NCBI RefSeq assembly: GCF_000564855.1
Contig: NZ_AYXG01000197.1
Span: 1-55,694, forward strand
DNA length: 55,694 nt
DNA from: Actinokineospora spheciospongiae
GTDB lineage: Bacteria > Actinomycetota > Actinomycetes > Mycobacteriales > Pseudonocardiaceae
Direction of reading: 5' to 3'
Part shown: in pieces, positions 19,894-46,031 of the stretch
How positions within the stretch are numbered: position 1 is the first letter of the stretch
Layout of the letters: the number at the start of each line of letters is the position of its first letter
The notes under the pieces: generated by a model
What the model was told of the DNA's origin: nothing
The model's input: the letters and a program-made list of their open reading frames with translations, nothing else
Databases searched by the model: none
Program-made: the position numbers and the translations under genes

Positions 19894-20721
19894 TCAGCCG
19901 TACAACCCGTCGATGGCGCCCGCCGCGATGGCGGTGACCACCTTGAACGCCTTCATCGCCGCGGTCTGCGACTCCGCGGTGAACCTCACCGTGCGCGTAC
20001 CCACCAATTCCACCGTCGGCACCACCGCGGCGGCATGTGCGAGATGTGTCGCATCGAAGTCGACCTCCACGGTGTGAGCGGACGCGTCGCCGTGCCCGCG
20101 CCCGGCGTGGGCCATCGCCGCGGCCGCCTCGGCGGTGATCACCGCGGCGGTCACCGACGGCGGCGAGCACACCGCGGCGTAGCGCGACACGCACTCCTTG
20201 ACCACCGCGTGCCGCGCCCTGGGCGCGTAGGTGGCCGCGTCGGCGCAGGTCAGGTCGTCGCCGGTGACCAGCAGCACCGGCACCCCGTGTTCGGCGGCGA
20301 GGGCGGCGTTGAGCCTGCCCTCGCCGGCCGCGACCCCGTCGAGGCGGACCTCGGTGATCGAGTTCTCCAGGTAGGTGTGGGCCAGCACCCCGTCGGCGCC
20401 CGCCCCGGTGTGGTAGCCCAGGAACACCACCCCGTCGACCCCGGAGTCGATGCCCTGCATCATCGACAGCGGCTTGTGGCGGCCGGTGAGCAGCCGGGCC
20501 CGGGGGTCCAGCTCCTCCAGCAGCACGTTGCGCTGGGAGGAGTGCGCCTCGTTGACCAGCACCTCGGCGGCGCCGCCGTCGAACAGCCCGGCCACGCAGG
20601 CGTTGACGTCACCGGTCAGCGACCGGCGGAACCGCTGCCACTGCTCGGTGCCCGGCACGACGTCGGCGGTGCAGGTGACGCCGGTGGCGCCTTCCATGTC
20701 CGCGGAGATGAGGATGCGCAC
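19894..20721 (-). CDS. M55 D-aminopeptidase (DppA-like)
   Basis: The 275-residue protein begins VRILISADMEGATGV, the M55 signature with the metal-binding D-x-E. It continues with VNEAHSSQRN, VFLGYHTGAGADGVLAHTY and NSITEVRLDG, which together supply the histidine and glutamate ligands of DppA. DppA of Bacillus is a D-stereospecific aminopeptidase releasing D-Ala from peptides and sits in the dpp operon. Here it is divergent from a dpp-like transporter, so the linkage is preserved. GTG at 20721 gives the conserved N-terminus directly; a longer start is not needed. Forms an operon with the M20 gene. Confidence 0.92.
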   Translation of the reverse strand: MRILISADMEGATGVTCTADVVPGTEQWQRFRRSLTGDVNACVAGLFDGGAAEVLVNEAHSSQRNVLLEELDPRARLLTGRHKPLSMMQGIDSGVDGVVFLGYHTGAGADGVLAHTYLENSITEVRLDGVAAGEGRLNAALAAEHGVPVLLVTGDDLTCADAATYAPRARHAVVKECVSRYAAVCSPPSVTAAVITAEAAAAMAHAGRGHGDASAHTVEVDFDATHLAHAAAVVPTVELVGTRTVRFTAESQTAAMKAFKVVTAIAAGAIDGLYG

Positions 20722-20729
20722 CGGACCCA

Positions 20730-20781
20730 GGTTACTTCTGCGCGACACTCGTTGACTTCCACGGTTCCCGAATGGTTACTT
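20730..20781. promoter_or_regulatory. Paired GGTTACTT repeats between peptidase and transporter operons
   Basis: GGTTACTT occurs at 20730-20737 and again at 20774-20781, 44 bp apart (about four helical turns), in the gap between the M55 start and the binding-protein start. A TTGACT at 20752-20757 could be the -35 element for the transporter. The layout suggests one regulator controlling both operons. Confidence 0.4.
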
Positions 20782-20835
20782 TCTTGCCAACTGTGACAGG
20801 AGCTGCGTCACACCGACGGACGAGGGGTGGGCACG

Positions 20836-22641
20836 GTGCGGCAGAGAAGATGGGCGTTGGGGGCATCCACACTGGTGGTGGCCATGTCGGCGGGACTGGG
20901 GGCGGTACCGGCGGCGACGACCGCCACCGCCGCCGCGCAACAGGGGACGACGCTGCGGGTCGCGGTCACCCAGGAGGTCGACTCGCTCAACCCGTTCCTG
21001 TCGATCACCCGCACCGGGACCGACATCCTGCGGGCCGCGTTCGAGGAGCTGACCACCGCCTCGGCCGCGGACCTGAGCCCCGAGCCGGGCCTGGCCGAGA
21101 AGTGGGAACCCTCACCGGACAAGCTCACCTGGACCTACACCGTGCGCCGCGGCGCGAAGTGGAGCGACGGACAGCCGATCACCGCCGCGGACGTGGCGTT
21201 CACGTTCAACCTGATGCTGTCCAACGAGACCGCCCGCACCGCCAACGGCAACTACGTCGCCCAGTGGGAATCGGTCACCGCCCCCGACGAGACGACCGTG
21301 GTGGTCAAGACGAGGGCCCCGCAGACCACCATGGTCGCCCTGGACATCCCGATCGTGCCCGAGCACGTGTGGTCCAAGGTCGACGTGGGCGCCGAACCCG
21401 CCTACCCCATGGTGGGGTCCGGGCCGTTCGTCATCACCGACTTCAAGGAGAGCCAGTACACCCGGCTCTCGGCGAACAAGCAGTACTGGCGCGGCGCACC
21501 GAAGATCGACAACCTCGACTTCATCCACTACAAGAACGCCGACGCCGCCGTGCAGGCGCTGCGCAACGGCGAGGTCGACCTGGTCAACGGCCTGACCCCC
21601 ACCCAATTCGACGCGCTCGCCGGTGACCCGGACATCGAGCGCAACAACGCCAAGGGCAAGCGGTTCAACGAACTGGTCATGAACCCCGGGGCCGCCACCG
21701 CCACCGGGCAGCCCATCGGCGACGGGCACCCCGCCCTCAAGGACCCGCGGCTGCGCCGGGCCATCGCCCAGGCCATCGACTCCAAGACCATCGTCGACAA
21801 GGTCTCCGGCGGGTACGCCACCGTCGGCGGTGGCTACATCCCGCCGCTGTTCTCCACCTACCACTGGGAACCCACCGGGGATCAGGCGCGGCCCTTCGAC
21901 CCGGCCGCGGCCAACTCCGCCCTCGACGCCGCCGGGTACGCCCGCGGCGGCGACGGGGTGCGCGTCGACCCCGCCAGTGGGCGCCCGCTGAAGTTCCGGC
22001 TGATGCTGCACTCCGGCAAGGCCTTCGACGAGCAGTCCGCCCCGTTCATCCAGGGGTGGCTGCGCGACATCGGCATCGCCGTGGACGTGCGGTCGGTGGC
22101 CGACAACAAGCTCAACGAGGACACCACCGCCGGGCGGTTCGACCTGGCCTACAGCGGCTGGACCGGCAACCCCGACCCCGATGCCGTCCTCGCCCTGCAG
22201 ACCTGCGCGTCGCGGCCCAACGCCGACGGCAAGGGCGCCACCCCCGACTCGTTCTTCTGCGACGCGGACTACGACCGCCTCTACGCCCAGCAGGGCAGCG
22301 AGTTCGACACCGCCAAGCGCGCCGAGATCGTCAAGCGGATGCAGCAGATCCTGCACGCCCAGGCGCCGCTGACCATCCTGTCCTACGACAACGCCCTGGA
22401 GGCCTACCGCAAGGACAGGTTCGCCCCGTTCACCCTGTCCCCGGACCCGGGCGGGTTCATCATGAACCAGCAGTCCTACTGGGGTTACTACAGCGCCACC
22501 CCCGCGTCGGCGTCCGCCTCGGGCGGGTCCTCGTCGTCGACGGTGGTGTGGGTGGTCATCGGCGCGGTCGTGGTGATCGCCGCCGTGGCGGCCCTGGTGC
22601 TGGCCCGCCGCCGCAGGGCCACCGCGGACGAGCGCGAATGA
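20836..22641 (+). CDS. Oligopeptide-type ABC transporter substrate-binding protein with C-terminal membrane anchor
   Basis: The 601-residue family-5 binding protein has a Sec signal (VRQRRWALGASTLVVAMSAG...) without a lipobox cysteine. The mature part shows LRVAVTQEVDSLNPFLSITR, AEKWEPSPDKLTWTYTVRRGAKWSDGQPITAADVAFTF and DPRLRRAIAQAID, the classical SBP_bac_5 blocks. After the domain a Ser/Ala linker leads to one C-terminal helix (VVWVVIGAVVVIAAVAALVL) and an R-R-R-R stop. Gram-positive binding proteins are normally lipoproteins, so this anchor is unusual. GTG at 20836 has GAGGGG eight bases upstream; GTG 20827 is the alternative. The stop overlaps the permease start (ATGA). Confidence 0.92.
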   Translation: MRQRRWALGASTLVVAMSAGLGAVPAATTATAAAQQGTTLRVAVTQEVDSLNPFLSITRTGTDILRAAFEELTTASAADLSPEPGLAEKWEPSPDKLTWTYTVRRGAKWSDGQPITAADVAFTFNLMLSNETARTANGNYVAQWESVTAPDETTVVVKTRAPQTTMVALDIPIVPEHVWSKVDVGAEPAYPMVGSGPFVITDFKESQYTRLSANKQYWRGAPKIDNLDFIHYKNADAAVQALRNGEVDLVNGLTPTQFDALAGDPDIERNNAKGKRFNELVMNPGAATATGQPIGDGHPALKDPRLRRAIAQAIDSKTIVDKVSGGYATVGGGYIPPLFSTYHWEPTGDQARPFDPAAANSALDAAGYARGGDGVRVDPASGRPLKFRLMLHSGKAFDEQSAPFIQGWLRDIGIAVDVRSVADNKLNEDTTAGRFDLAYSGWTGNPDPDAVLALQTCASRPNADGKGATPDSFFCDADYDRLYAQQGSEFDTAKRAEIVKRMQQILHAQAPLTILSYDNALEAYRKDRFAPFTLSPDPGGFIMNQQSYWGYYSATPASASASGGSSSSTVVWVVIGAVVVIAAVAALVLARRRRATADERE

Positions 22642-23663
22642 CCGACGCGCTCACCACCGTCGAGCCCCCCGCCGCCGCCACCCCGCGTGGCGGCGGCGGG
22701 GGGACGCTGCGCTACGTGCTCAGCAAGGTCGGCGCCGCGCTGATCAGCCTGGGGCTGATCGTGGTCCTCGGGTTCGTGCTGTTCCGGGTCCTGCTGCCCG
22801 GCGACCCGGTGCGCACCCTGACCCGCGGCGCCCCGGTCACCCCCGAGGGCGCCGCCGCCCTCGAACGCGAGTACGGGTTCGACCTGCCGCTGTGGGGGCA
22901 GTTCACCCGCTACCTGGGCAACCTCGCCCACGGGGACCTCGACAGGTCGCTGGTGTTCAAGGTGCCGGTGGCGCAGAAGATCGGCGAACGGCTCGGCCCG
23001 ACGCTGCTGCTGGTCGGCGTGGGCACCCTCATCGCGGTGGTGCTGGGCCTGTGGCTGGGCACCCGCACCGCCTGGCGGCGCGGCAGCCGCTTCGACCGCA
23101 CCGCCACCGGGATCGCCCTCGCCCTGTGGTCGGCCCCCACCTTCTGGCTGGGGCTGGTCCTGCTGACCGCCACCGGCGGGCTGTTCCCCTCCGGGGGCAT
23201 CACCTACCCCGACACCCCACCGGACTTCCTCTCCCAGGCCCTCGACACCGCCCACCACATGGTGCTGCCCACGATCACCCTCGTCGCCGTCGTCTACGCC
23301 CAGTACCAACTGGTCATGCGGTCCTCGCTGGTGGAGGAGATGCACGCCGAGCACCTGCTCACCGCCCGCGCCAAGGGCCTGCGCGACGACGAGGTGCGCC
23401 GCCGCCACGCCGTGCCCAACGCCCTGCTGCCCACCGTGACCCTGGTGTTCCTGCACCTGGGCCTGGTGGTGTCCGGGGCGATCACGGTGGAGACGGTGTT
23501 CTCCTGGCCCGGCCTGGGCCTGCTCACCTTCGAGGCGCTGCGCTTCCCCGACTACCCGCTGCTGCAGGGCACCTTCCTGGTGCTGGCCGCCGCCGTGGTC
23601 GTGATGAACCTCGTCGCCGACCTGCTCCTGCGGGTCCTCGACCCCCGGGTGCGTGCCTCATGA
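22638..23663 (+). CDS. Peptide ABC transporter permease (DppB-like)
   Basis: The 341-residue inner-membrane permease of the DppB/OppB group opens with a Pro/Gly-rich tail. A first membrane helix LISLGLIVVLGFVLFRVLLPGDPVR carries the family PGDP motif, then come five further helices. The EAA-type loop LTARAKGLRDDEVRRRHAVPNALLP contacts the ATPase. ATGA overlap with the binding-protein gene before it and with the second permease after it shows a single coupled operon. It should form the heterodimeric channel with the next gene product. Confidence 0.93.
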   Translation: MTDALTTVEPPAAATPRGGGGGTLRYVLSKVGAALISLGLIVVLGFVLFRVLLPGDPVRTLTRGAPVTPEGAAALEREYGFDLPLWGQFTRYLGNLAHGDLDRSLVFKVPVAQKIGERLGPTLLLVGVGTLIAVVLGLWLGTRTAWRRGSRFDRTATGIALALWSAPTFWLGLVLLTATGGLFPSGGITYPDTPPDFLSQALDTAHHMVLPTITLVAVVYAQYQLVMRSSLVEEMHAEHLLTARAKGLRDDEVRRRHAVPNALLPTVTLVFLHLGLVVSGAITVETVFSWPGLGLLTFEALRFPDYPLLQGTFLVLAAAVVVMNLVADLLLRVLDPRVRAS

Positions 23664-24568
23664 CCGCCCCCGAACCCGTCGAGCGGACCCCCGGCCCGGC
23701 GTGGGCGCGGCGCCGCGCCGCCGCCCGCCGCGCCTGGGGCGAGTTCACCCGCCACCGCGCCGGGGTCCTCGGCCTCGGCGTGCTGGTGCTGGTCATCGCC
23801 CTGGCCGCGCTGGCACCGCTGATCACCGACGCCGACGGCGTCGACGTCACCCGCGCCACCGGCGGCCGGTTGGAACCACCCGGCGGCCGGTACTGGCTCG
23901 GCACAGACGAGAGCGGGCGCTCGGTGCTGCTGCTGGTGCTGTGGGGGGCGCGGATCTCCCTGCTCGTCGGCCTGTCGGCCACCCTGCTCTCCATCGCCAT
24001 CGGCACCGTCGTGGGCATCCTCACCGGGCACTTCGGCGGCTGGGGGTCGGCGCTGCTGATGCGGCTGACCGACTTCTTCCTCGTGCTGCCCTCGCTGGTG
24101 CTGGCCATCGCCCTGTCCACGGTGATCGGACCGGGGGTGGGCACCATCGTGCTGGCCATCGGCGTCACCTCCTGGCCCTCGGCGGCCCGGCTGGTGCGCG
24201 CCCAGACCCTCGGCGTGGAGGCCCGCCCCTACATCGAGCGCTCCCGCGCCCTCGGCGGCGGGCACCTGCACGTCATCGGCAAGCACGTGCTGCCCGGGGT
24301 GCTGCCGCTGGTGCTGGTCAACACCACCCTGGCCGTGGGCACCGCCATCGTCGCCGAGTCCACCCTGGCCTTCCTCGGCCTCGGCGACCCGGTGGCCATC
24401 TCCTGGGGCAGCATGCTGCGCTCGGCGTCGAACTCCGGGGCCGTCACCGCCGGGGCTTGGTGGTACCTGGTGCCGCCGGGGCTGGCCATCGCCGTGGTCG
24501 TGCTCGCCTTCACCCTGTGCGGGCGCGCCATGGAGTCCGTGCTCAACCCCAGGCTGCGGGAGCGCTGA
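23660..24568 (+). CDS. Peptide ABC transporter permease (DppC-like)
   Basis: The 302-residue second permease has the DppC hallmarks: a cytoplasmic N-terminal segment with [21 protein letters not shown], a first helix, then a periplasmic loop with [25 protein letters not shown], and an EAA loop [33 protein letters not shown] and [20 protein letters not shown] near the end are also typical. The start overlaps the preceding stop (ATGA), and the ATPase gene begins two bases after its own stop. Confidence 0.93.
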
Positions 24569-24569
24569 G

Positions 24570-26192
24570 ATGACCCTGTTGCAACTGCGCGACCTGCACG
24601 TGCGCTACCCGGGCGAGCACGCCGTCGCCGGGGTCGACCTGGCCCTGGCCGCGGGGGAGACCCTCGGCCTGGCCGGGGAGTCCGGCTGCGGCAAGTCCAC
24701 CCTGGCCATGTCCGTGCTGCGGCTGCTGCCGCCCACCGCCGAGGTCGACGGGGAAATCCTCTTCGACGGCGAGGACGTGTCCACCATGAGCTGGGGGCGG
24801 CTGCGCGCGGTCCGCTGGGCCGGGGCGTCGGTGGTGTTCCAGGGCGCCATGCACGCCCTCAACCCCGTGCACCGCATCGGCGAGCAGATCGCCGAACCCA
24901 TCCGCGTGCACTCGCCCAAGACCCCACCGGCCCGGGTCCGCGAGCGGGTCGCCGAACTGCTCGCCCAGGTGGAACTGCCCGCCGACCGGGCCGGGGCCTA
25001 CCCCCACCAGCTCTCCGGCGGGCAGAAGCAGCGGGTGATGATCGCCATGGCCCTGGCCTGCGACCCCAAGCTGGTCATCGCCGACGAACCCACCACCGCC
25101 CTCGACGTCGTCGTGCAGGCCCAGGTCCTCGACGTGCTCACCCGCCTGGTCACCGACCACGGCATCGGGCTGCTGCTGATCTCCCACGACCTGGCCGTGC
25201 TCGGCGCCACCTGCGGGCGGCTGGCGGTCATGCGCCGCGGCCGCGTCGTCGAGGAAGGACCCGCCCACCGGGTCATCACCGCCCCCACCCACCCCTACAC
25301 CCGCACCCTGGCCGCCGCGTTCCCCACCATCGGCGACCCGGCCTCCCGGTACAACCCGGCCACCGCCGGTGAACCCCCGGTCGCGGGCACCGAGGCGGTG
25401 GGGGAGGAACTGCTCACCATCCGCGACCTGCGGGTCACCTTCGGGGCCACCGCCGCCGTGGCCGGGGTGGACCTGAGCGTCCGCGCCGGGGAGATCGTCG
25501 CCCTGGTCGGGCAGTCCGGCTCCGGCAAGACCACCCTCGCCCGCACCGTCCTGGGGTTGCGGAAACCCGACTCCGGGCAGGTCCTCTTCGACGGCAAACC
25601 GGTCCCCACCTCGACCAAGGGGCTCAAAGCCCACCGCAAACAGGTGCAACTGGTGCTGCAGGACCCCACCAGCGCCCTCAACCCCCGCCACACCGTGCAC
25701 GAGGCGGTCGCCGAGGGGCTGCGCATCCACGGGGTGCGCGGCGACGAGGCCGACCTGGTGCGCGCGGCGCTGACCGACGCCGAACTGCGACCCGCGGAGA
25801 AGTACCTGGGGTCGCTGCCGCACGAGCTGTCCGGCGGGCAGCGGCAACGGGTCGTCATCGCCGGGGCCTTGGCCCTGTCCCTGCGGCTGCTCGTCGCCGA
25901 CGAACCCGTCGCCTCCCTCGACGCGTCCGTGCGCGGGGAGGTCCTGGCGCTGCTGCTGCGGCTGCGCGCCCGCCTCGGCCTGGCCACCCTGGTCATCACC
26001 CACGACCTCGGGCTCGCCTGGAACATCGCCGACCGGGTCGCGGTCATGCACCGGGGGGTGATCGTCGAACACGGCCCCGTCGAGGACGTGCTGCTGCGCC
26101 CCCACCACGACTACACGAGGTCACTGCTGGCGGCCGTCCCCCGCCCGGACGCGGGCCGAACGGCCGAACCCCGGGCCGACCAGGGGGTCTGA
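24570..26192 (+). CDS. Peptide ABC transporter ATPase, DppD-DppF fusion
   Basis: The 540-residue protein contains two complete nucleotide-binding domains. Domain 1 has Walker [11 protein letters not shown], signature LSGGQKQRV and Walker [14 protein letters not shown]. Domain 2 has [19 protein letters not shown] and [12 protein letters not shown]. Both carry the H-D switch ([16 protein letters not shown]). In many bacteria these are separate DppD and DppF proteins; the fusion is common in actinomycetes. A C-terminal oligopeptide-ATPase extension occurs after domain 1 ([12 protein letters not shown]) and domain 2 ([12 protein letters not shown]). It powers the transporter formed by the three preceding genes and ends the operon. 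Confidence 0.94.
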
Positions 26193-34185: not shown

Positions 34186-35111
34186 TGCCCCGGCAGTGGC
34201 CCGCGTCGTTCCGCGACCGGCTGACCTCCCCGCTGCCCGGCCCCGCGCAACTGCTGCGCATCCTGCGCGAGGGCGGCTTCCGCGGGTCCACCGAACACGC
34301 CGACCGCATCCCGGTGGCGCGCACCGGGCTGCCCCCGGCCGACCCGGCCGAAGTGGCGCTGACCTGGGTGGGCCACGCCACCTACGTCATCCGGGTGGGC
34401 GGGGCGTGCGTGCTGGCCGACCCGGTGTGGTCCGACCGCATCCCCGGCACCCCGCGCCGGATCACCCCACCCGGCATCGCCTGGGAGGAACTGCCACCGG
34501 TGGACGCGGTGGTGATCAGCCACAACCACTACGACCACCAGGACGCCCCCACCCTGCGCCGCCTGCCCCGCTCGACGCCGGTGCTGGTACCGGGCGGGTC
34601 GGGGCGCTGGTTCACCCGCCGCGGGTTCACCGACGTGCACGAACTGGACTGGTGGGAGTCGGTGCGGGTCGCGGGCCTGGCCTTCGACTTCACCCCCACC
34701 CACCACTGGTCGCGCCGCGGCCTCACCGACACCTGCAAGTCCCTGTGGGGCGGCTGGGTGATCACCGGTGACGGGCACCGGGTGTTCCACGCCGGGGACA
34801 GCGGCCACGGGCACTGGTTCACCGAGATCGGCCGCCGGTACCCGGGGATCGACGTGGCGATGATGCCGATCGGCGCCTACGACCCGCGCTGGTTCATGTC
34901 CCCGGTGCACATGGACCCCGAGGAGGCCGTGCGCGCCACCACCGAGCTGGGCGCCCGGCGGTTGGCCTCGATGCACTGGGGCACGTTCGTGCTGACCGGG
35001 GAACCGGTGCACGAGCCGCTGGGGCGGGTGCGGGCGGCGTGGTCGGCGGCCGGATTGCCCGTCGAGGACCTGTGGGACCTGGCCGTGGGGGAGACCCGCA
35101 CCCTGCGCTGA
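34185..35111 (+). CDS. MBL-fold metallohydrolase (NAPE-PLD-like)
   Basis: The 308-residue metallo-beta-lactamase-fold enzyme has the zinc motif SHNHYDHQDAPTL (H-x-H-x-D-H), upstream WVGHATYVIRVGGACVLADPVWSDR, then TPTHHWSRRG, HAGDSGHGHWF with metal-binding D and H, and late MHWGTF. The spacing and W-G-G-W insert match the NAPE-phospholipase D / UlaG-like subgroup, whose members hydrolyse phosphodiester or lactone bonds. The start overlaps the SCO1664-family stop (TGATG), so it belongs to that operon. No export signal. Substrate unknown; an association with envelope lipid is possible but not shown. Confidence 0.9.
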   Translation: MPRQWPASFRDRLTSPLPGPAQLLRILREGGFRGSTEHADRIPVARTGLPPADPAEVALTWVGHATYVIRVGGACVLADPVWSDRIPGTPRRITPPGIAWEELPPVDAVVISHNHYDHQDAPTLRRLPRSTPVLVPGGSGRWFTRRGFTDVHELDWWESVRVAGLAFDFTPTHHWSRRGLTDTCKSLWGGWVITGDGHRVFHAGDSGHGHWFTEIGRRYPGIDVAMMPIGAYDPRWFMSPVHMDPEEAVRATTELGARRLASMHWGTFVLTGEPVHEPLGRVRAAWSAAGLPVEDLWDLAVGETRTLR

Positions 35112-35179
35112 GCCGTGATCGTACCGCCGATGTGCTGAACGTCGTGGACCACCGCCGCGGCCTGCGGTGCAATGGGTCG

Positions 35180-38100
35180 GTGCGGACGCTGTCCAGGCTG
35201 CTGGTCCCGTCGCTGATCACGGCCGGGGTGGTGACACTGTCGGCGATCGCCGTGAACGTGTGGACCAGCGAGTCCGTGCCCGCGCCGTTCCACCTGCTCA
35301 AGGCCCACGCGCACTGGGCGGTGCTCGGCCTGTGGCTGCTCACCGCGCTGCTGGCCGCGCTGTACGAACTGCCCCGCCGCAAGGCCGCCGAGGAGGAACA
35401 GGCCCTCGCCGAGCGCGATCGCCTGGGCGCGACGGTGGCGGTCGTGCGCGGCCGGATGCACCGCACCGTCGCCCGCCGGGTCCGCGACAGCCGCCTGTTC
35501 CCCGGCCTGCCCCGGCTGCCGCAGGTGTGGCAGTCCGCCACGCCCACCCGGCTGGCCACCGACGCCGCGGGGTACCTGAGGGGCGAGGAGTACGTCCGCA
35601 CATTCGAGGCCGTCCCATCCCGGCGCCTGGTGGTGTGCGGGGCCGCAGGCACCGGCAAGACCGACTGGCTGCTCACCTACGCCCAGGGCGCCCTGGCAGC
35701 AGATGGCCCCGTGCCGCTGCTGCTGGACCTCAGCACCTGGCCCAGGGACCTGGACTTCGAGCGGTGGACCGGCAGGCAGTTCGCCGCGGAGTTCCCCGAA
35801 CTCGACGGCGACTTCGTGCACACCGGGCGGTTCGTGCTGCTGCTCGACGGCCTCGACGAGGTCGACCCCGAACGCAGGCACGGGCTGCTGGAGGTGCTGG
35901 GCTCCGCGGTGTGGAGCGACCAGGCGATCATCCTCACCAGCCGCCCCGAGGCCTATCCCGACCACGGCCTGCTGGACGCGGCGGTCATCATCCTGCTCCC
36001 GCTGGACACCGGGCAGGTGGTGGGGTGGCTCGACCGGGTGTTCCGCACCGAGGCCGACGCCGAACGCTGGTTGCCGGTGCGCCGCGCGCTGCGCACCCCG
36101 GGCAGCCCGGTCGCCGAGGCGCTGAGCAGCCCGCTGATGGTCACCCTGGCGGCGAAGGTCTTCCAGGACCCGGGCAGCGACCCGGCCGAGCTGGCAGACG
36201 CCGGGTCGGTCACCGGCCGGTTGCTCGACGGTGTGGTGCCCGCCGCCTACGCCCGTCCCGGCAAGCAGTCGAAGTGGACGGCCGAGCAGGCGGCGGGCTG
36301 GCTGGAGTTCCTCGCCACCCACACCGGGCGGGACGGGATCGCCTGGTGGCGGCTGTACCTGCTCGTGCCCCGCTGGCGGTTCGCCGTCTGCTTCGGATTC
36401 CTGCCCGCGCTCACCGGCACCCTGATCGCCGGTGGAGCGGCCTGGCTGTTCCTCGGTGCGCTGCCCGCGGGTCTGTCGGTGGACGACACCTGGGAATTGC
36501 TCAGGCAGCCGCTGCTCATCGCGCAGTCCATGTTCGACAACGCCGTCCGGACGATCAGCGGCGAACAACAGCCGAGCGCGGCGGAGACCGCGGTGGCCGT
36601 CGGGTCGGCGGTCGGGTCGATCGCGGCGGGCTGTCTGTCCGGTGCGCTGCTCGGTGCGCGGGAGAGCAGCTGGTGGCGGCGCACGGGCTGGTCGGTCCGG
36701 GGGATCGGGCGGCCCTGGCCGGCCCCGGTCCGGGACATCGGCTTCGGCGTGGTGGTCGCCGCCGCCGTGGGCGCGTTGACCGCGACGGCCGGGGTCGCGG
36801 TGGCGAGCCTGCTGCTCACCGCGGGCGAGGACTCCAGTGCGTTGTTCTGGCTGGCCACGGGGACCGCCGTGGGGGTCGGCGCCCTCACCGGGGCGGGTAC
36901 CGGCCTGTACTCGGTGCTCTTCGGTGAGCCACCGCTGGTGTGGTCGCGGCTGAGCCCGAGCGCGCCGAGCCGCCTGCGCCTGACCCTGCCGCCGTGGCGG
37001 CGGTGGGTGCTGGCCGCGGCCGGGGGCGCGGTGGCGGGCACCGTGCTGGCCCTGGCCTTCGGCGCCGGGCCGGGGCGGGTGGCGCTGCTCTGCGCGGCTG
37101 TCGCGGTGGCGGGCGTCGCCTGGCTGATCGCCGACGACCTCACCGACGACGAGGGCCCCGGGCCCGCCGACACCTGGCAGGCCCGCGGTGCCGAGCGGCC
37201 CTCGGTGCTGCTGCGCGACGACGTGCTCGCGTCCCTGATGCGGGTGGTGGCCACGGCGCTGCTCGCCGCCCCGCTGTTGGCCGCGCCGTTCGTGGTGCAC
37301 CCGGCCGTCGGGCGGACGGTGGCCGGGCTGCTGGTGGTGTACGCGGTGCTCCGCGAGCTGACCACCCGGTCGTGGAGCTGGTGGCTGGTGGCCGCCCTGG
37401 CACTGGCGGTCCGGCGGCGCCTGCCGTGGTCGGCGCTGGGTTTCCTGGAGGACGCATGCGCACGTCAGGTGTTGCGGGTGCAGGGCGGCAGGTACCACTT
37501 CCGCCACGCCGAGTTGGCCGACCGCCTCTCCCGCGCCCCTGCGCCTCCCGCGCCCGCACCACGCCGGGAGGACTGGGACCACGTGGTGGTCGACGCTCCC
37601 TACGCGGAGGACCTCATCCGGGCGTACGACCTGATCGACGAGGGCGAGGACGCCGAGGCCCGGCCGCTGCTGGAGGCGTTGCGGGACCGGGCCCGGCGTG
37701 ACGGGGACGCCGAGGCCGCGTTGGTCGCCCGTGCCGCGCTCGCCCAGTTGTCGGACCTCGACGGCGCAGCGGCGGGCCTGCGCGGGCGACTCACCGAGAT
37801 CCTCCCCGAAGTGCTCGCCACGTTCGGGGAGGCGCACCTGCTGACGGTGCGGACCCGGCTGCTCCTGGCCGACCTGCTCACCGGGGACAAGGCGATCAGG
37901 CACGTGGACGCCGTTCTGGCCGCGCGCCCGCACGGCGCCGCCCCGTCGGACCCCTACGTGCGGGCCGCGCACCTGCGGGGTGTCGACCTGCACGAGGACG
38001 GTGACCAGCTGTCTCGGCTGCACCACGCGGCCATGGCCGAGGCGGGCCTGCCCGAGGGAGATCCCCGCGTCGAACGGCTCCGGGGAATCCAGCTCGAGGC

Positions 38101-38383
38101 CCGGACCAACGTGGTCTGCGCCTTCGCCCCGGCACCGGAACGGCTGGTGTCCCTGACCAGGCTGCACCGGGAGGCGTGCGCCAGGCTGCGCCCCGGGCAC
38201 CCCACCACGATGACCATCCGGGTGGAGCTGGCCAAGGCCTGCGGCCGGGCGGGGCGGTGGGCGCAGGCCGAGGAGCACTGGGTCGCGATCACCGAGTGGG
38301 CGGACGGGGCGCTGGAACCGGGCCCGGTGATGGACGGTTTCCACGACCAACTGCGCAAGGCCCGCGGCCACCGCCGGTTCTGA
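35180..38383 (+). CDS. Polytopic NACHT-domain protein
   Basis: About 1067 residues. Two N-terminal membrane helices (about 8-27 and 45-62) precede a NACHT-type STAND NTPase with Walker A CGAAGTGKTDWLL near 153-165, Walker B FVLLLDGLDEVD near 221-232 (the D-G-L-D-E form diagnostic of NACHT) and sensor ILTSRPEAYPDH. After the lid region come two clusters of membrane helices (about 400-570 and 605-745), and the last 300 residues form TPR-like helices (RAYDLIDEGEDAEARPLLEALRDRA...). Bacterial NACHT proteins include antiphage receptors, and membrane forms are frequent in actinomycetes. GTG at 35180 gives an N-terminus that leads straight into the first helix. No separate effector enzyme is linked; membrane action by the helices is conceivable but inferred. 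Confidence 0.87.
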   Translation: MRTLSRLLVPSLITAGVVTLSAIAVNVWTSESVPAPFHLLKAHAHWAVLGLWLLTALLAALYELPRRKAAEEEQALAERDRLGATVAVVRGRMHRTVARRVRDSRLFPGLPRLPQVWQSATPTRLATDAAGYLRGEEYVRTFEAVPSRRLVVCGAAGTGKTDWLLTYAQGALAADGPVPLLLDLSTWPRDLDFERWTGRQFAAEFPELDGDFVHTGRFVLLLDGLDEVDPERRHGLLEVLGSAVWSDQAIILTSRPEAYPDHGLLDAAVIILLPLDTGQVVGWLDRVFRTEADAERWLPVRRALRTPGSPVAEALSSPLMVTLAAKVFQDPGSDPAELADAGSVTGRLLDGVVPAAYARPGKQSKWTAEQAAGWLEFLATHTGRDGIAWWRLYLLVPRWRFAVCFGFLPALTGTLIAGGAAWLFLGALPAGLSVDDTWELLRQPLLIAQSMFDNAVRTISGEQQPSAAETAVAVGSAVGSIAAGCLSGALLGARESSWWRRTGWSVRGIGRPWPAPVRDIGFGVVVAAAVGALTATAGVAVASLLLTAGEDSSALFWLATGTAVGVGALTGAGTGLYSVLFGEPPLVWSRLSPSAPSRLRLTLPPWRRWVLAAAGGAVAGTVLALAFGAGPGRVALLCAAVAVAGVAWLIADDLTDDEGPGPADTWQARGAERPSVLLRDDVLASLMRVVATALLAAPLLAAPFVVHPAVGRTVAGLLVVYAVLRELTTRSWSWWLVAALALAVRRRLPWSALGFLEDACARQVLRVQGGRYHFRHAELADRLSRAPAPPAPAPRREDWDHVVVDAPYAEDLIRAYDLIDEGEDAEARPLLEALRDRARRDGDAEAALVARAALAQLSDLDGAAAGLRGRLTEILPEVLATFGEAHLLTVRTRLLLADLLTGDKAIRHVDAVLAARPHGAAPSDPYVRAAHLRGVDLHEDGDQLSRLHHAAMAEAGLPEGDPRVERLRGIQLEARTNVVCAFAPAPERLVSLTRLHREACARLRPGHPTTMTIRVELAKACGRAGRWAQAEEHWVAITEWADGALEPGPVMDGFHDQLRKARGHRRF

Positions 38384-39112: not shown

Positions 39113-39649
39113 TCAGGGGCGGGGGCGGGCGTTGCGCAGGCGGATGCCGCTGAACCCCACGGTGAGGGTGGTGACCGCGTCCCAGAACGCCCACAGGTTG
39201 TCCAGCACCCGCAGTTGGATTCCGGCCTCGGCGTGCACGGCGAGCAGGTCGCCGACGGGTTCGGGTGGTCCCAGCGGGGTGACCGGGCGGGTGGCGACGT
39301 GCGCGTGCGGCACGGGTGTGCCGTGCGGGCGGAAGTCGGCGGCGGGGAAGCGGTAGGCGTAGAGGCGGGTGGTGCGCAGCGCGTCGAGCCAGGCGTACTC
39401 GACGGCGTGCACCCGGTGCCCGCCGCCGGGGCCCAGGACGGTGTCGCGGTCGGCCGGGGTGGTGGTGGGGGTGGCCCAGGCCATGGCGCGCGGGCAGGCG
39501 CGGGGGAACCAGTAGTCCGGGGCCCTGGCGGCGTCGACGGCCCACACGTAGGCGTCGGGTTCGGCCGCGGTGGCGGCGCGGTGCGGGGCGAAGCGGGTGA
39601 TCGTCGGGTCCTCGGAGAAGTGCAGCAGTTGCCCCGGTTCCGGTCGCAT
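39113..39649 (-). CDS. DUF6886 family protein
   Basis: The 178-residue protein begins MRPEPGQLLHFSEDPTITRFAPHRA, then AYVWAVDAARAPDYWFPRACPRAMAW and VHAVEYAWLDALRTTRLYAYRFPAADFRPHGT. The 'LxHFSEDPxIxxFxP' opening followed by an 'APxYWFPRxCPR' block is the pattern I associate with DUF6886, whose members are single-domain cytoplasmic proteins of about 170 residues, possibly related to ADP-ribosyl-transferase-like folds. ATG at 39649 is preferred over a 12-residue upstream extension. Function unknown. Confidence 0.75.
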   Translation of the reverse strand: MRPEPGQLLHFSEDPTITRFAPHRAATAAEPDAYVWAVDAARAPDYWFPRACPRAMAWATPTTTPADRDTVLGPGGGHRVHAVEYAWLDALRTTRLYAYRFPAADFRPHGTPVPHAHVATRPVTPLGPPEPVGDLLAVHAEAGIQLRVLDNLWAFWDAVTTLTVGFSGIRLRNARPRP

Positions 39650-39715
39650 GGACCGACCTTGCCGCAGGCGGTGGCGAACGGGCAATCGGTTCCCCGCCGC
39701 GCACCGGGGCGGGGG

Positions 39716-41171: not shown

Positions 41172-42986
41172 TCACTCCGAGGCGAGCAGGTCCTGCAGTT
41201 CGGTGACGGCCCCGCGCAGCTCGGTGACGAAGGTGTTCATCTCCTCGGCGACCGCGGCGGGGGTCGACAGGTACAGGTTGAACCGGTCGGGCAGCAGCAC
41301 GTAGGCCACCCCGATGCAGGTGGGGCTGGTGGAGCCGAACCCGAAGTACTGGATGTTGGTCGACGGGGCGGAGCTGGTGGACAGGTAGTCGTCGCGCATG
41401 ACCGTCCAGCCCGGGGTGTCGTAGAGGGCCAGGGGGGCGGTGGCGCCGAGTTCGGCGCCGCGGCGCTTCTGGATCAGTTGCAGCTCCCACAGGTGCTGCT
41501 CGGGGGCCTGGCCGTTCTGGCACTGCTTGGCGCGGGCGACGTGGGCCTCGGCGGCGGTGCGGAACGCGGCCCGCTTGTCCGCCGCGGACACCGCCGGGTC
41601 TCCCATGGCCTCGACGAAGGCGAGGACCTCCGGGGTGACCACGCGCATCGCCTCGGTGCGCCCGTTCTGGTACTGGCGGGTGGCGATGGACTCGTAGGTG
41701 GCGCCGGTGATGCCCTTGGACCGCTTGTGCGCGAGCTGGTAGGCGAGCTGGGCGAACGCGTCGGGCGACATCTTCAGCGCCTTGGCCCTGGCGGTGCCGA
41801 AGTCGGTGAACGACACGGTGCGGGTGGCGGTGGCCGCGGCGTACTCGGCGAACGCGCGCCGGGCGGTGGCGATGTCGGCGCGCAGGGCGTCATCGAGGAC
41901 GAACTCGATGGGGTCGACGGCGGGGAGGCCCTGCGGGCGGGCCCCGGCGCGCTCGGCGTGGGCCTCGGCGGTCTCGCCGAGCATGGCGTCGACGAAGCTG
42001 AGGATGGTGGTGCCGTCGAGGCCGCAGTGCTCGATGTTGATCCCGGCCCGCCCGTCGGCGAAGACGATGAGCGACACGGCCTTGTCGAAGTAGCGGTTGC
42101 CGCTGTCGCCGTGCAGGAGCTGGTCGCACGCGGCCTGGGTGTCGGCGGGGGCGAAGGACTCCAGGTTGACGCAGAACAGGGCGGTCTCGATGGTGTCGAC
42201 CGCGGCGGCGTTGGCCGGGTCGAGGGCGATCAGGCGGCCCCGGGTCCGCGCCCACTCGGCGCGGGCCTGGGTGGTCAGGGACCCGACGGTGCGGTCGGGG
42301 GCGGTGCCGTCGGCACCGGCCTTGACCACCGCCCGCAGCCCGCCCTCGAGGTCGGACAGGGAGTAGGGGGCGCCGTCGGGGCCGATGACGTCCATCCGGA
42401 ACATGCTGCCCCGGTTGAACACCACCACGTGCCGGGCGGCCGACGGGCCGGGCCACTCGTCGGTGTAGGGGACGCGGACGGTGTCCTGCTCGGCGCCGGG
42501 GATGCGGGTCTCGGAGAACAGGAACTTGTTCTGCTCCATCGACAGCGCCTGCCCGCGCTGGATGACCGGCGGCACCTCCTCCTTGTCGAGCAGGAGCTTG
42601 AAGTCCACCGCAGCGGTGATCAGCCCGGCGGCCCGCTGGAACTGGTCCTCGTCGGTGTCGCGGAACAGGAAGAAGAAGTTCGCGTTGAGCGCGATGCGGT
42701 CGCGGCGCCCCAGGTACCGCGAGGGCCAGAACACGTCGAGCCAGGAGCGGGTGCCGGGGGCGTCGTTGAACCGCTCCAGGTCAGCGTGCAGGACCCGGGC
42801 CGGGCTGTCGGCGGCCAGGTAGTCGGTGACGGCGGCCTCGGTGGTGGCCAACTGCTCGGGGGTGAGCAGCGGCGAGCACCACGTCAGGAACCGCGCGCAG
42901 GTGTCCTCCAGCGTGGGCAGCGGTACCCGGGGCAGCCGGTCCTCGTTGCCGAACGTGCGGGTGGACCACTGCTGGCTGCTGTTCAC
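41172..42986 (-). CDS. Choline/carnitine O-acyltransferase family protein
   Basis: The 604-residue enzyme of the carnitine/choline acyltransferase fold has catalytic His320 in NIEHCGLDGTTIL, matching the H-x3-(D/G)-G motif of carnitine acyltransferases. N-terminal LPRVPLPTLEDTCARFLTWCSPLL, VFNRGSMFRMDV (the family's F-R-M-D-like segment) and late STSSAPSTNIQYFGFGSTSP, matching the S-T-S acyl-CoA/carnitine site, are all present. It would move an acyl group from CoA to a hydroxyl of a quaternary ammonium compound. Such enzymes are rare in bacteria. The position behind a 2OG dioxygenase and an SAM methyltransferase suggests a locally made carnitine-like acceptor. GTG start at 42986; own start region 115 bp after the methyltransferase gene. 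Confidence 0.9.
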   Translation of the reverse strand: MNSSQQWSTRTFGNEDRLPRVPLPTLEDTCARFLTWCSPLLTPEQLATTEAAVTDYLAADSPARVLHADLERFNDAPGTRSWLDVFWPSRYLGRRDRIALNANFFFLFRDTDEDQFQRAAGLITAAVDFKLLLDKEEVPPVIQRGQALSMEQNKFLFSETRIPGAEQDTVRVPYTDEWPGPSAARHVVVFNRGSMFRMDVIGPDGAPYSLSDLEGGLRAVVKAGADGTAPDRTVGSLTTQARAEWARTRGRLIALDPANAAAVDTIETALFCVNLESFAPADTQAACDQLLHGDSGNRYFDKAVSLIVFADGRAGINIEHCGLDGTTILSFVDAMLGETAEAHAERAGARPQGLPAVDPIEFVLDDALRADIATARRAFAEYAAATATRTVSFTDFGTARAKALKMSPDAFAQLAYQLAHKRSKGITGATYESIATRQYQNGRTEAMRVVTPEVLAFVEAMGDPAVSAADKRAAFRTAAEAHVARAKQCQNGQAPEQHLWELQLIQKRRGAELGATAPLALYDTPGWTVMRDDYLSTSSAPSTNIQYFGFGSTSPTCIGVAYVLLPDRFNLYLSTPAAVAEEMNTFVTELRGAVTELQDLLASE

Positions 42987-43084
42987 TGGCGTCCTTCTTC
43001 TTCACGCGGGAATCGACGCGTTCATCATCAACTGCGCGGGCACCACCCCGCAATGAGCGCTGCGCAACTGGCGCGGCGTGACAA

Positions 43085-43102
43085 AACCCGCGGTGGCCGG
43101 GT
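43085..43102 (-). terminator. Possible intrinsic terminator after the methyltransferase gene
   Basis: On the minus strand ACCCG pairs with CGGGT across 7 bases, followed directly by TTTT; it begins at the last base of the stop codon. The stem is short, so it may be a partial terminator before the acyltransferase gene. Confidence 0.35.
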
Positions 43103-43929
43103 CAGACCGGCAGCGGGGCCGCGCCGCGCGGGCGCGACAGGTGCAGCTCGGCGTAGAGCCAGCCCTCGGACTCCAGGCCGGTGGGGTCCACCCCGGCGGT
43201 GGCGATGGTGTGGAGGACCTGGGCCTGCTCCTCGGCGGAGGCGAAGCGCCGCTGCTTGAAGGTGCCCTCGACGTGCACGGTGTCGTAGCCGAGGTCGGCG
43301 AGGGCGTCGGCGACGCCGGTGTAGGGGAACATCCGCAGCACGAAGTGCGCCATCCACGGCAGCGGCCCGTCCTGGGCCTCGGCGACGCGGGTGAGGGTGG
43401 CCTCGGTGACGTAGCCGACGCACCCGGTGGACACGACCAGGTCGGTGCCCGCCAGCCGGGCCCGCTGCTCGGGGGTGGGGTCGCCCGACTCCAGGTCGGC
43501 GTGCACGGTGTCCTCGAGGTACCCGGCGGCGTGGGCGTAGGCCAGGGCGGGCGCGGAGGCGTCGAACCCGACGAAGCGCACGTCCTCGAGCTGGTCGCGG
43601 GAGCGGACCATGGCCCGGTCCACGGCGAGGAGCCCGTCGCGGTCGAGTCCGGTGACGGCCGGGTCGGTGTAGTGGGTGTAGAGCTCGTCCATGGTGGCGT
43701 CGCAGCGCAGCAGGGCGGCGTTGATGCCGTAGGAGCAGCCGATGTCGAGGACCTGGGGCACCGCGACGCCCTGGGTCTGGCGGTACTCCTGGATGAGCTT
43801 GGCGAAGTAGGGCTTGGCCAGCTCGGGGATCTGGTAGTCCAGGCCGCGCAGGGCGGCGAAGTAGGCGCGCGGGTCGGGCTCGGTGTAGATGTGGTCGAAC
43901 GAGGTCTTGCCGGTGGCGTCGAGGTCCAC
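43102..43929 (-). CDS. Class I SAM-dependent methyltransferase
   Basis: The 275-residue methyltransferase has the SAM loop VLDIGCSYGINAALL at 60-74, then the acidic strand-2 end VGFDASAPALAYAHAAG, and post-I motif DLVVSTGCVGYV. The first 50 residues (FDHIYTEPDPRAYFAALRGLDYQIPELAKPYF) form a lid that could bind a small polar substrate. No membrane or carrier-protein domain. It lies between a 2OG dioxygenase and a carnitine-acyltransferase-like gene in one orientation. A role in N-methylating the hydroxylated amino acid made by the dioxygenase is the natural reading, but the specificity is inferred from context only. Confidence 0.87.
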   Translation of the reverse strand: MDLDATGKTSFDHIYTEPDPRAYFAALRGLDYQIPELAKPYFAKLIQEYRQTQGVAVPQVLDIGCSYGINAALLRCDATMDELYTHYTDPAVTGLDRDGLLAVDRAMVRSRDQLEDVRFVGFDASAPALAYAHAAGYLEDTVHADLESGDPTPEQRARLAGTDLVVSTGCVGYVTEATLTRVAEAQDGPLPWMAHFVLRMFPYTGVADALADLGYDTVHVEGTFKQRRFASAEEQAQVLHTIATAGVDPTGLESEGWLYAELHLSRPRGAAPLPV

Positions 43930-44001
43930 GGGTGCTCGTCTCTCCTAGCCGGGGTGCGGGCGGGCGGTGGCCCGTCGCCGGGGTGTGGTCGGGGGCGCGG
44001 G

Positions 44002-44898
44002 TCAGTCGAGGAGGGTGTCGCCGCGCACGGCGCGACCCGCGGCGGCCAAGTGCTCGGGCAGGACCCGGCCGAAGAGCTGCCGGGTGCGCTCGACGCTGCC
44101 GATGACGCCGGGCCGCTGGCTGTAGGCGAAGATCGCCGAGTGCCGGGCGGTGGCGCCGGTGACGGTGTCGACCCGGTGCAGGGCGAAGCGGCCCTTGAAC
44201 AGTTGCAGGTCCCCGGGGCGCAGGCTCAGGTGCCGCACCAGGTCGGACCCGCCCGCGAGCACGGCGGCGACGTCGGGCAGGTTCTCGTCTGTCTCGGTGC
44301 GGATGCCGGGGCAGTAGTGGAACTGCCCGCCCCCGTCGGGCTCCTGGGTGAGCATGCTGACGGTGAACTCGTTGGTGTCGAAGTGCCAGGGGTGGGCCAT
44401 GCCCGGGGGGATGACGTTGAGGCACAGCCCCGAGAGCGGGTCGGCCAGTTCGTGCAGCTCGGGCAGCTCGAAGCAGTCGGCGACGAAGCGCTGGAACAGC
44501 GCGCTGGTGTAGAGGCGTTCGATGATGGCACCTGCGGGCAGCAGGTCGCGGGCGACGAAGGCGTTGCCGCGGACCATGGTGACCCGCCCGGGGTGCTCGG
44601 CGGGCAGGTCGGCGTCGAGGGCGATGTTGTAGGCGTTGACCGTCTCGGGTTCGTAGTGCGCCTGCGGGGCGACGGCCGCCCCCTCGGCGCGCAGGGCGTC
44701 CTGCAGGGCGGGGCGGATGAAGTCCGCCAGCACGGTGCAGCCCTGTTCGCGCAGTTCACGGCGGGCGCGGTCGACGACGCCGGTCAGGGTGGGCCCGCCG
44801 GGGTCGTCGAGCGGGTAGCGGTCGGTGTCGACCACCTCCTCGACGACCCGCGCCTGGCTCCGCGTGCGTTCCCCCGACCCCTCCGCCGATCCGCCCAT
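44002..44898 (-). CDS. Fe(II)/2-oxoglutarate dioxygenase, HalD/BesD-ArpA-like, hydroxylase type
   Basis: 298 residues. The iron triad is seen as H172-F-D174 in HPWHFDTNEFTVSMLTQEPDGGGQFHYCPGIR and H241 in FALHRVDTVTG; R252 or R262 nearby probably binds 2-oxoglutarate. The VNAYNIALDADLPAEHPGRVTMVRGNAFVARDLL region resembles the HalD/BesD family that acts on free amino acids. BesD-type halogenases have glycine where this protein has D174, so this one should hydroxylate rather than chlorinate. ATG start at 44898 follows AAGGACGGGG. It leads a three-gene set with a methyltransferase and a carnitine-type acyltransferase. Substrate is likely a free amino acid or a methylated derivative; this is inference. 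Confidence 0.85.
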   Translation of the reverse strand: MGGSAEGSGERTRSQARVVEEVVDTDRYPLDDPGGPTLTGVVDRARRELREQGCTVLADFIRPALQDALRAEGAAVAPQAHYEPETVNAYNIALDADLPAEHPGRVTMVRGNAFVARDLLPAGAIIERLYTSALFQRFVADCFELPELHELADPLSGLCLNVIPPGMAHPWHFDTNEFTVSMLTQEPDGGGQFHYCPGIRTETDENLPDVAAVLAGGSDLVRHLSLRPGDLQLFKGRFALHRVDTVTGATARHSAIFAYSQRPGVIGSVERTRQLFGRVLPEHLAAAGRAVRGDTLLD

Positions 44899-45269
44899 CG
44901 ACCCCGTCCTTCCCCGCGTACGGGTGATTGCCGTGTCCGCCCCATTGTCCGACTCGGCGCTGGACCGGGTTTATCACAGCCGTCTCACCGGTTTCCATCA
45001 ATGTGATCGACTTTGTGACACGACACACGAAAGCCGTGGTCACGGGCGGAGTCGGCCGCATTCTGCCGAACTCCGGGGCCGGTCATACCGCCGAATGGTG
45101 GCCTTATCCGGAATGTGGCCGCACCGGTTGTGACAATGGTGCGTGAAATTCCTCGGCGATGACCGGCGGGTGCGCGACACCCGACGCTGCGGTGTCACCA
45201 CCACAGACACCCGTGCCATACCGCACACCGAACCTGGTAGTTCGCACACGGCCGGTGTGCGAGGATGGG
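44899..45269. other. 371-bp divergent intergenic region, less G+C-rich
   Basis: Between the dioxygenase gene (minus) and the DeoR gene (plus). Visibly less G+C-rich than its surroundings, especially 44940-45150. It holds only chance frames. On the minus strand a TTGATG (45002-44997) and TGATAA (44976-44971) could be promoter elements with a long 20-base spacer. On the plus strand GGTGTC (45191-45196) and GACACC (45206-45211) are inverted, and the DeoR palindrome lies at 45242-45262. Confidence 0.5.
45242..45262. promoter_or_regulatory. Probable DeoR operator
   Basis: TCGCACAC (45242-45249) and GTGTGCGA (45255-45262) form a perfect 8-bp inverted repeat with a 5-base centre. It overlaps the GAGG ribosome binding site, eight bases before the DeoR start, ideal for autoregulation. 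Confidence 0.55.
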
Positions 45270-46031
45270 GTGGTGCGCGGAGACGAACGCAGGCGGGTGA
45301 TCGTGGCCCGGCTGCGACAGGGACAACGGGTCGAGGTGGCCGCGGTGGCCGCGGAGACCGGCGCCTCGGAGATGACGGTGCGCCGCGACCTCGACGCGCT
45401 CGCCGCGACCGGGGTGCTGCGCCGGGTGCACGGCGGCGCGGTCGCGGCCACCCCCGGGTCGGTGGAGCAGCCCTTCGCCACCCGGGCCACCGCAGGCGCC
45501 GACGCCAAGCGGCGCATCGCCGCGGCGGTGGCGGCGATGGTGCGCGACGCCGAGGTCGTGGTCCTCGACTCGGGCACCACCGCGGTGCAGGTGGCCAAGG
45601 CGCTGCGCGGGCGCCCGGTGACGGTGATGCCGCTGTCGCTGCACGCCGCCCGCGAACTCCTCGACGACCCGCAAGCGCGGGTGCTGATGTGCGGCGGGCA
45701 ACCCCGGCGCGGGGAGTGGGCGCTGACCGGGCCGCTGGCGGTGGCCTCGCTGCGCGCGGTGCGCTTCGACGTGGCGGTGATCAGCCCCTGCGGGTTCGAC
45801 ACCGCCACCGGCCTGACCGCCGTCGACCTCGACGACGCCCAGGTCAAGCAGGAGGCGATGGCCGCCGCGGGCCGGGTCCTGGCCGCGGTCGACGGCGGCA
45901 AGTGGGGCCACACCGCCATGGCCCGCATCTGCCCGGCCGACCGGGTCGACGTGCTCATCACCGACGACACCGCCCCGGCCGCGGACCGGGCGGAACTGGC
46001 CGGAATGGGAGTGACGATCCATGTCTGCTGA
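45270..46031 (+). CDS. DeoR-family regulator
   Basis: The 253-residue protein has an N-terminal winged helix: DERRRVIVARLRQGQRVEVAAVAAETGASEMTVRRDLDALAATGVLRRVHGGAV, the DeoR signature with V-R-R-D-L and R-V-H-G-G-A. The sugar-phosphate sensor follows (AEVVVLDSGTTAVQVAKAL, PRRGEWALTGPLAV, VISPCGFDTATGLT, ITDDTAP). It normally binds a phosphorylated sugar. Start at GTG 45270, or 45273, both behind GAGG. Its 3' end overlaps the MFS gene by 11 bases, so it probably controls that transporter. Confidence 0.92.
   Translation: MVRGDERRRVIVARLRQGQRVEVAAVAAETGASEMTVRRDLDALAATGVLRRVHGGAVAATPGSVEQPFATRATAGADAKRRIAAAVAAMVRDAEVVVLDSGTTAVQVAKALRGRPVTVMPLSLHAARELLDDPQARVLMCGGQPRRGEWALTGPLAVASLRAVRFDVAVISPCGFDTATGLTAVDLDDAQVKQEAMAAAGRVLAAVDGGKWGHTAMARICPADRVDVLITDDTAPAADRAELAGMGVTIHVC

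Follow-up and report, generated by a model that had tools for sequence, protein, structure and literature searches.

In eukaryotes, the carnitine route proceeds through TMLH, BBOX, and then CrAT. The γ-butyrobetaine and trimethyllysine hydroxylases belong, as we take it, to the TauD family. Among dioxygenases of the HalD/BesD type, the mark of a halogenase is presumably an HxG motif with an open halide site. Here we analyze a stretch of Actinokineospora spheciospongiae DNA of 55,694 nucleotides (contig NZ_AYXG01000197.1, hereafter the window), which carries adjacent genes for a 2-oxoglutarate (2OG)/Fe(II) dioxygenase, an S-adenosylmethionine (SAM)-dependent methyltransferase, and a choline/carnitine-type O-acyltransferase. 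The trio is a conserved set, not a chance neighborhood. We propose, with a probability of about 0.46, that its three enzymes form a short biosynthetic route to a hydroxylated and O-acylated onium zwitterion of the betaine type. A literature search found no description of the trio in the portions of open-licence PMC papers that it covered.

Three adjacent genes form a conserved cassette

The three genes are co-directional on the minus strand and occupy positions 44898-41172. In transcription order, they encode the HalD/BesD-type dioxygenase with an HxD triad (44002-44898, 298 residues), the class I methyltransferase, which is an optional member (43102-43929, 275 residues), and the acyltransferase (41172-42986, 604 residues). 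The map of open reading frames confirms the coordinates given in a preliminary description of this DNA. The intergenic gaps are 72 and 115 bases, and a purine-rich stretch resembling a ribosome-binding site lies 5' of all three starts. NCBIfam names none of the three proteins. The enzyme classes assigned in the preliminary description are borne out by Pfam HalD, by PF00755, and by the fold of the methyltransferase.

Co-occurrence was assessed in 298 genomes of the same order. The dioxygenase is present in 33 and a PF00755 protein in 34, and both are present in 32 (Fisher p ~2e-39, kinship of the genomes not corrected for). The singletons are one genome with the dioxygenase only (G049, a 36% relative) and two with the acyltransferase only (G018 and G050, both divergent). 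When the best 30 of the 33 dioxygenase matches, the window's own included, are made into loci, the acyltransferase adjoins the dioxygenase in all 30 and the methyltransferase is there too in 24. The acyltransferase is oriented facing the dioxygenase in one locus (L016).

A scan of named genomes yielded 276 stretches encoding a dioxygenase relative. The best 80 were retained as loci; they partly overlap the 298-genome sample, so the two counts are not independent. Eleven named genera are represented (Actinokineospora, Amycolatopsis, Actinomadura, Actinocorallia, Actinophytocola, Saccharopolyspora, Saccharomonospora, Nocardia, Streptomyces, Wenjunlia, and Frankia), along with one further Pseudonocardiaceae genome. 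The acyltransferase lies beside the dioxygenase in 79 loci, and the single locus without it (L085) stops at a contig end. All three genes are present in 74 of the 80 loci. Conservation of the trio was one of the refutation tests that the preliminary description had set for its proposal beforehand, and the proposal has passed it. In Streptomyces clavifer JCM 5059 (L106, 10942-11741), counted among the 74, the methyltransferase is split over two open reading frames, owing to either decay or a sequencing error.

In 78 three-gene loci (the 74 named ones plus four, the split L106 and a fused locus, L115, included), with starts set by homology to the window genes, the median spacing is 34 bases between dioxygenase and methyltransferase and 13 bases between methyltransferase and acyltransferase. 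Pairwise comparison of the protein distance matrices of the three enzymes gives r of 0.90-0.92 in 76 of these loci (L106 and L043 dropped), compared with at most 0.12 in 500 permutations; host relatedness also raises such mirror-tree correlations. The methyltransferase and the acyltransferase are one open frame in L115 (Candidatus Frankia californiensis), L197, and L198. This fusion is found in three of the four genomes sampled from g322, a Frankia-group genus, and the genes are separate in L194. G018 carries an acyltransferase-methyltransferase pair without the dioxygenase within the 20 kb fetched, and G050 carries an acyltransferase with neither partner within the 18 kb fetched.

Co-occurrence, co-location, the mirror-tree correlations, the fusion, and the dioxygenase-free pair of G018 all argue that the trio acts in one pathway. 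The contrary view, in which the three genes serve separate pathways and chance or common regulation alone keeps them together, could appeal to the 12 examined loci in which the methyltransferase is missing beside the pair. Given the 11 named genera with different flanks, the fusion, and the co-occurrence, we find it scarcely credible.

The conserved unit is small. Among the 85 loci examined, the commonest other neighbor family is seen in 24, and other neighbor families are almost wholly confined to single genera, Nocardia or Amycolatopsis plus kin. Two neighbor clusters span several genera, with nine loci each: one is antisense over the cassette, and the other is a mixture of ATP-binding cassette (ABC) ATPases. 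A larger biosynthetic cluster was rejected because no fourth gene is kept across genera and the multi-genus candidate is this mixed ABC group.

In an even sample of 396 genomes of the phylum, PF00755 proteins are present in four (L192, which is of a different type, and three of the cassette type) and the dioxygenase in 17. Fourteen of the 17 dioxygenases are distant forms, around which the stretches fetched contain neither the methyltransferase nor the acyltransferase. Carriage by plasmid or phage was rejected, as the acyltransferase has no plasmid match and the dioxygenase no phage match; 92 plasmid records contain a dioxygenase relative, all with <60% identity.

The dioxygenase is predicted to be a hydroxylase

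The dioxygenase matches Pfam HalD (PF23169) with 45.5 bits (cut-off 26); its other Pfam match, to WelO5, is weak. The best Foldseek matches of its AlphaFold model (predicted local distance difference test, pLDDT, 90.7) are HalB, HalD, BesD, and the lysine hydroxylase 7jsd, at 15-19% identity. The match to HalB has an E of 1.6e-14 and a template modeling score (TM, target) of 0.73. The relation to the HalD/BesD family, as previously described, is therefore upheld by a Pfam score over the cut-off and by the fold.

Residues 171-174 read WHFD. Residues H172, D174, H241, and R252 are invariant in a 56-row alignment, and all 86 dioxygenases compared, among them the 36% relative in G049, have HFD at the metal site, in agreement with the hydroxylase triad reported earlier. 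Because HFD replaces the halogenase HxG, the enzyme is predicted to be of the hydroxylase type, and halogenation was rejected. In the dioxygenase tree, a 99/99 branch separates the 92 cassette members from the rest.

The acyltransferase has a changed acceptor site

The acyltransferase matches PF00755 over its full length (5e-160). Alignment with the structures of CrAT and CPT2 identifies His320 as the catalytic histidine and Asp324 as its acidic partner. Gln497 occupies the position of the CrAT arginine (motif FDRHL), Phe548 that of Met564, and Phe550 that of Phe566. In CrAT, we take Arg518 to bind the carnitine carboxylate, Met564 to limit acyl length, and Phe566 to contact the trimethylammonium; Tyr431 and Thr444 of the cassette enzyme align with residues that we take to be the other contacts of the carnitine carboxylate.

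Residues His320, Asp324, Tyr431, Thr444, Gln497, Phe548, and Phe550 are invariant across all 89 cassette acyltransferases compared: the one encoded in the window, 83 of the blastp set, and five encoded in loci that have no methyltransferase. The divergent proteins of G018 and G050 keep the glutamine and have tryptophan at the Met564 place, and glutamine is likewise found in L149 and L150. The arginine is kept in L192, a more distant actinobacterial acyltransferase. The L192 gene (9001-10704) is a separate PF00755 acyltransferase gene with no dioxygenase or methyltransferase partner within the 20 kb fetched.

Since glutamine replaces the arginine of the carnitine enzymes in all 89 proteins, the cassette acyltransferase is, by its residues, a distinct subfamily of glutamine type. 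It has neither the arginine of the carnitine-specific enzymes (CrAT, COT, and CPT) nor the asparagine of choline acetyltransferase, which we likewise take to be without the arginine, with Asn at that place and Val for Thr. The bulky side chain at the Met564 position, Phe or Trp, points to a pocket for short acyl groups, and the acyl donors are probably short. The acceptor is thus predicted to resemble carnitine at the onium end and to differ from it at the carboxylate end, and some contact with a carboxylate could persist, Tyr431 and Thr444 being kept. The preliminary description had proposed an acylcarnitine-like product. An O-acylated carnitine-like compound is plausible, but not an acylcarnitine in the strict sense, as the arginine position is an invariant glutamine.

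The same residue bears on whether the cassette makes carnitine and acetylcarnitine from 4-aminobutyrate via γ-butyrobetaine. The three chemistries would match this route. However, the arginine is replaced in 89 of 89 proteins, whereas the more distant L192 keeps it, and the Pfam scan gives no match of the dioxygenase to TauD, the family of the γ-butyrobetaine and trimethyllysine hydroxylases. Carnitine itself was disfavored as the product on account of the glutamine at the carboxylate site, and we consider the route highly unlikely.

The methyltransferase is a dispensable member

The methyltransferase has sub-threshold Pfam matches only (Methyltransf_12/25), no NCBIfam match up to E 0.1, and a best PDB profile match with an E of 0.072. 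Its AlphaFold model (pLDDT 90.5) has the class I SAM methyltransferase fold, and the Foldseek matches are generic (BioC, MmtN, and PMT at TM ~0.4). MmtN and phosphoethanolamine methyltransferases are among the first fifteen fold matches, which do not decide the acceptor. Methionine S-methylation, for which MmtN ranks fourth in the fold search, was not adopted, because TM is ~0.4, unrelated methyltransferases score alike, and MmtN is missing from the profile search.

In 12 examined loci (five from named genomes and seven others), the methyltransferase is missing beside the dioxygenase/acyltransferase pair, indicating that it is a dispensable member of the cassette. A relative is encoded elsewhere in four of these genomes, a close one in G267 and G967 and a distant one in G224 and G968; in the remaining eight genomes, none was found elsewhere. 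Such loci scatter over several points of the dioxygenase tree, so the gene has probably been lost more than once. As these cassettes keep the pair, the methyl step need not lie between the other two.

The methyltransferase might instead cap the carboxylate as a methyl ester, or modify another position, in which case the product would be an O-acyl hydroxy-amino acid ester without an onium. A neutral ester would fit the missing arginine, and the methyltransferase falls in no assigned family. On the other hand, Tyr431, Thr444, and the phenylalanine that contacts trimethylammonium are kept in 89 of 89 acyltransferases, and the glutamine is also found in loci without an adjoining methyltransferase (the five added rows and five named loci). 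We therefore regard the ester as unlikely.

A second methyltransferase subfamily is found in genomes of the same class, and its neighbors were inspected in seven loci. In L231, it adjoins an OpuAC-type glycine-betaine ABC system. In L234 (9238-12432), it forms an apparent operon with an SbnA-type enzyme (over cut-off), that is, a 2,3-diaminopropionate enzyme, and an MFS transporter, which makes L234 a candidate small natural-product locus. In the remaining five loci, five of whose neighbors were scanned, nothing telling was found.

Dioxygenase relatives outside the cassette lean toward an onium substrate

Neighbors were inspected, and partly scanned, for 20 relatives outside the cassette: the 14 distant actinobacterial ones and six of the 92 plasmid records. 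Their identity to the window dioxygenase is 28-48%. Four contexts contain clear betaine genes (OpuAC transport or MTTB: L223, L224, L227, and L228), three contain an M24 gene only, four a Fae-type gene, and nine none of these.

In Caballeronia L223 (48% identity), the gene order is LysR, dioxygenase, M24 protein, OpuAC substrate-binding protein, and ProW-like permease. Against the DddP model, whose cut-off is 600 bits, the M24 protein reaches 330, so it is DddP-like and not a true DddP. An M24 gene of this type also adjoins the dioxygenase relative in Pseudomonas L224, where OpuAC lies at a distance of 7.6 kb. MTTB is found in Mesorhizobium L227, together with a Rieske enzyme that matches GbcA best, though far under the cut-off (157 of 670 bits), and in Rhodobacteraceae L228, where it follows an operon for an ABC transporter. 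Of the actinobacterial loci, 14 in all, three have an M24 gene and four have a Fae-type gene adjoining the dioxygenase relative, each Pfam-confirmed in both loci scanned.

Two of these settings deserve note in their own right. The DddP-like M24 genes beside dioxygenase relatives (L223, 8902-13209; L224, 8953-18413; L182, 9408-11493) may belong to an undescribed betaine or sulfonium catabolic route. The Fae-type genes directly beside distant relatives (L183, 2277-3604; L184, 9587-10920; L185; L186) hint at 2OG-dependent demethylation that releases formaldehyde.

The contexts of L223, L224, L227, L228, and L182, together with the second-subfamily neighbors in L231 and L234, lean toward an onium (betaine) substrate for the dioxygenase, and such a substrate would in turn suggest that methylation precedes hydroxylation. 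The preliminary description had proposed a different order, in which a free amino acid is hydroxylated, then N-methylated, and then O-acylated. That order is consistent with the Pfam HalD and fold matches to lysine/ornithine halogenases and hydroxylases, with the gene order in the cassette, and with the apparent operon of methyltransferase and SbnA in L234. However, the BesD-family similarity that favors a free amino acid is distant (15-19%), four nearer relatives accompany betaine genes, and cassettes without the methyltransferase retain the other two enzymes. Hydroxylation first keeps a modest chance. The earlier interpretation is thus partly supported: its enzyme classes and conservation stand, and the order that we favor is methylation first.

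The relatives with a Fae-type neighbor also bear on the reaction itself, as these four could be demethylases rather than C-hydroxylases. Were the cassette dioxygenase an oxidative demethylase, the cassette would recycle or degrade an acylated betaine. The Fae-type genes, MTTB, and the Rieske enzyme resembling glycine-betaine monooxygenase beside its relatives are consistent with such a role, and carnitine acyltransferases are reversible. But the SAM methyltransferase of the same operon would undo the demethylation, and no further gene is kept with the cassette across genera, leaving demethylation a slim chance.

Several observations weigh against a biosynthetic pathway to an acylated hydroxy-onium compound. 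Clear betaine genes are found in only four of the 20 outside contexts. Nine others, Pantoea L225 and Enterobacter L226 among them, have no betaine, Fae, or M24 genes (neighbors partly scanned), and an M24 gene by itself is weak evidence, as DddP, the best model for it, is matched below the cut-off. The four Fae-adjacent relatives point to demethylation, as discussed above. The rows adjoining the cassette clade in the dioxygenase tree, Caballeronia L223 and actinobacterial L182, both have an M24 protein next door, but the tree is midpoint-rooted with several long outer branches, which makes the sister rows unsure. A betaine transporter lies beside the second methyltransferase subfamily in one of seven loci, and the generic fold matches of the cassette methyltransferase would be compatible with N-, S-, O-, or C-methylation. 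Finally, the cassette itself has no conserved transporter.

Proposed pathway

We propose that the SAM methyltransferase would first make or complete a quaternary ammonium (or sulfonium) amino acid. In genomes without its gene, a ready-made betaine may be taken up, or the gene may be located elsewhere. The HalD-type Fe/2OG dioxygenase would then hydroxylate an unactivated C-H of the onium zwitterion, and the carnitine-type acyltransferase would move a short acyl group, probably acetyl, from coenzyme A onto the new hydroxyl. Acyl transfer to an onium compound is argued by the PF00755 homology, by the His/Asp pair in 89 of 89 proteins, and by the phenylalanine at the CrAT Phe566 position in 89 of 89. 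The product could serve as a compatible solute, as stored acyl, or as a signal. The proposal builds on the enzyme families, co-conservation, co-inheritance, the fusion, the retention of the catalytic residues, and the substitution in the acceptor site of the acyltransferase; we infer the substrate, the methylated atom, the order of steps, the acyl chain, and the purpose.

A wider proposal, which we advance more tentatively, is that actinomycetes from Streptomyces to Frankia make an O-acyl hydroxy-onium compound, which would correspond in bacteria to acylcarnitine or acetylcholine but have another core, using a third, glutamine-type acceptor class of acyltransferase and a betaine hydroxylase of the BesD-like lineage. 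If so, a de novo bacterial acylcarnitine-like route would add new chemistry to a group already well mined. The acyltransferase would then have a natural third acceptor specificity besides carnitine and choline, and betaines would join the substrates of the BesD-like dioxygenase lineage. The cassette is short, widespread, and easy to express, so its product can be sought directly.

Flanking genes and other features of the window

The region 5' of the cassette (44899-45158) faces a divergent DeoR-type regulator (45159-46031, Pfam match) and is probably the cassette promoter region. An MFS transporter is encoded on the same side. The Pfam-assigned genes on the other side encode a TetR regulator, an SDR oxidoreductase, and a DUF6886 protein; the last (39113-39685, minus strand, 226 bits) adjoins the SDR gene downstream of the cassette.

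Three features lie elsewhere in the window. A protein of 1114 residues (35039-38383, plus strand) resembles a STAND-type NTPase, with weak matches to NACHT (23.5 bits, cut-off 26.7) and to TPR. Genes for an M20 peptidase, an M55 D-aminopeptidase, a family 5 substrate-binding protein, and an oligopeptide ABC ATPase are clustered at 18576-26192, in what looks like a unit for uptake and cleavage of D-dipeptides or muropeptides. A protein of 1254 residues (5108-8872, plus strand) has C-terminal TPR repeats and no further Pfam match at the limit used.

Comparison with known systems

The dioxygenase shares with HalB (7u6j), HalD (7u6h), BesD (6nie), and the hydroxylase 7jsd the fold (TM ~0.6-0.7), the Pfam HalD family, and the position of the metal site, HxD/G...H. 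It differs from the BesD/HalD family in its low identity (15-19%), in HxD for the halogenase HxG, in its longer chain, and in having four nearer relatives with betaine genes. Those relatives are carried by bacterial betaine clusters (OpuAC/ProW, MTTB, GbcA-like Rieske, and DddP-like M24), which, unlike the cassette, have neither this methyltransferase family nor the acyltransferase in the stretches fetched.

The acyltransferase is homologous over its whole length to carnitine acetyltransferase and CPT2 (PF00755) and shares with them the catalytic histidine, its acidic partner, and the acceptor-site Tyr and Thr. Unlike them, it has Gln for Arg and Phe for Met564, is bacterial, and has its gene beside those of a dioxygenase and a methyltransferase. 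Choline acetyltransferase belongs to the same fold family.

A related logic is seen in mammals, where BBOX is reported to make homocarnitine from δ-valerobetaine (PMC11773067). The cassette shares with the eukaryotic carnitine route a methylated amine, C-hydroxylation by a 2OG enzyme, and O-acylation, and differs from it in the dioxygenase family, in the methyltransferase, and in the arrangement of three genes in one operon. The proposed pathway would thus parallel the eukaryotic conversion of γ-butyrobetaine to carnitine and acetylcarnitine, with other enzymes and on another core.

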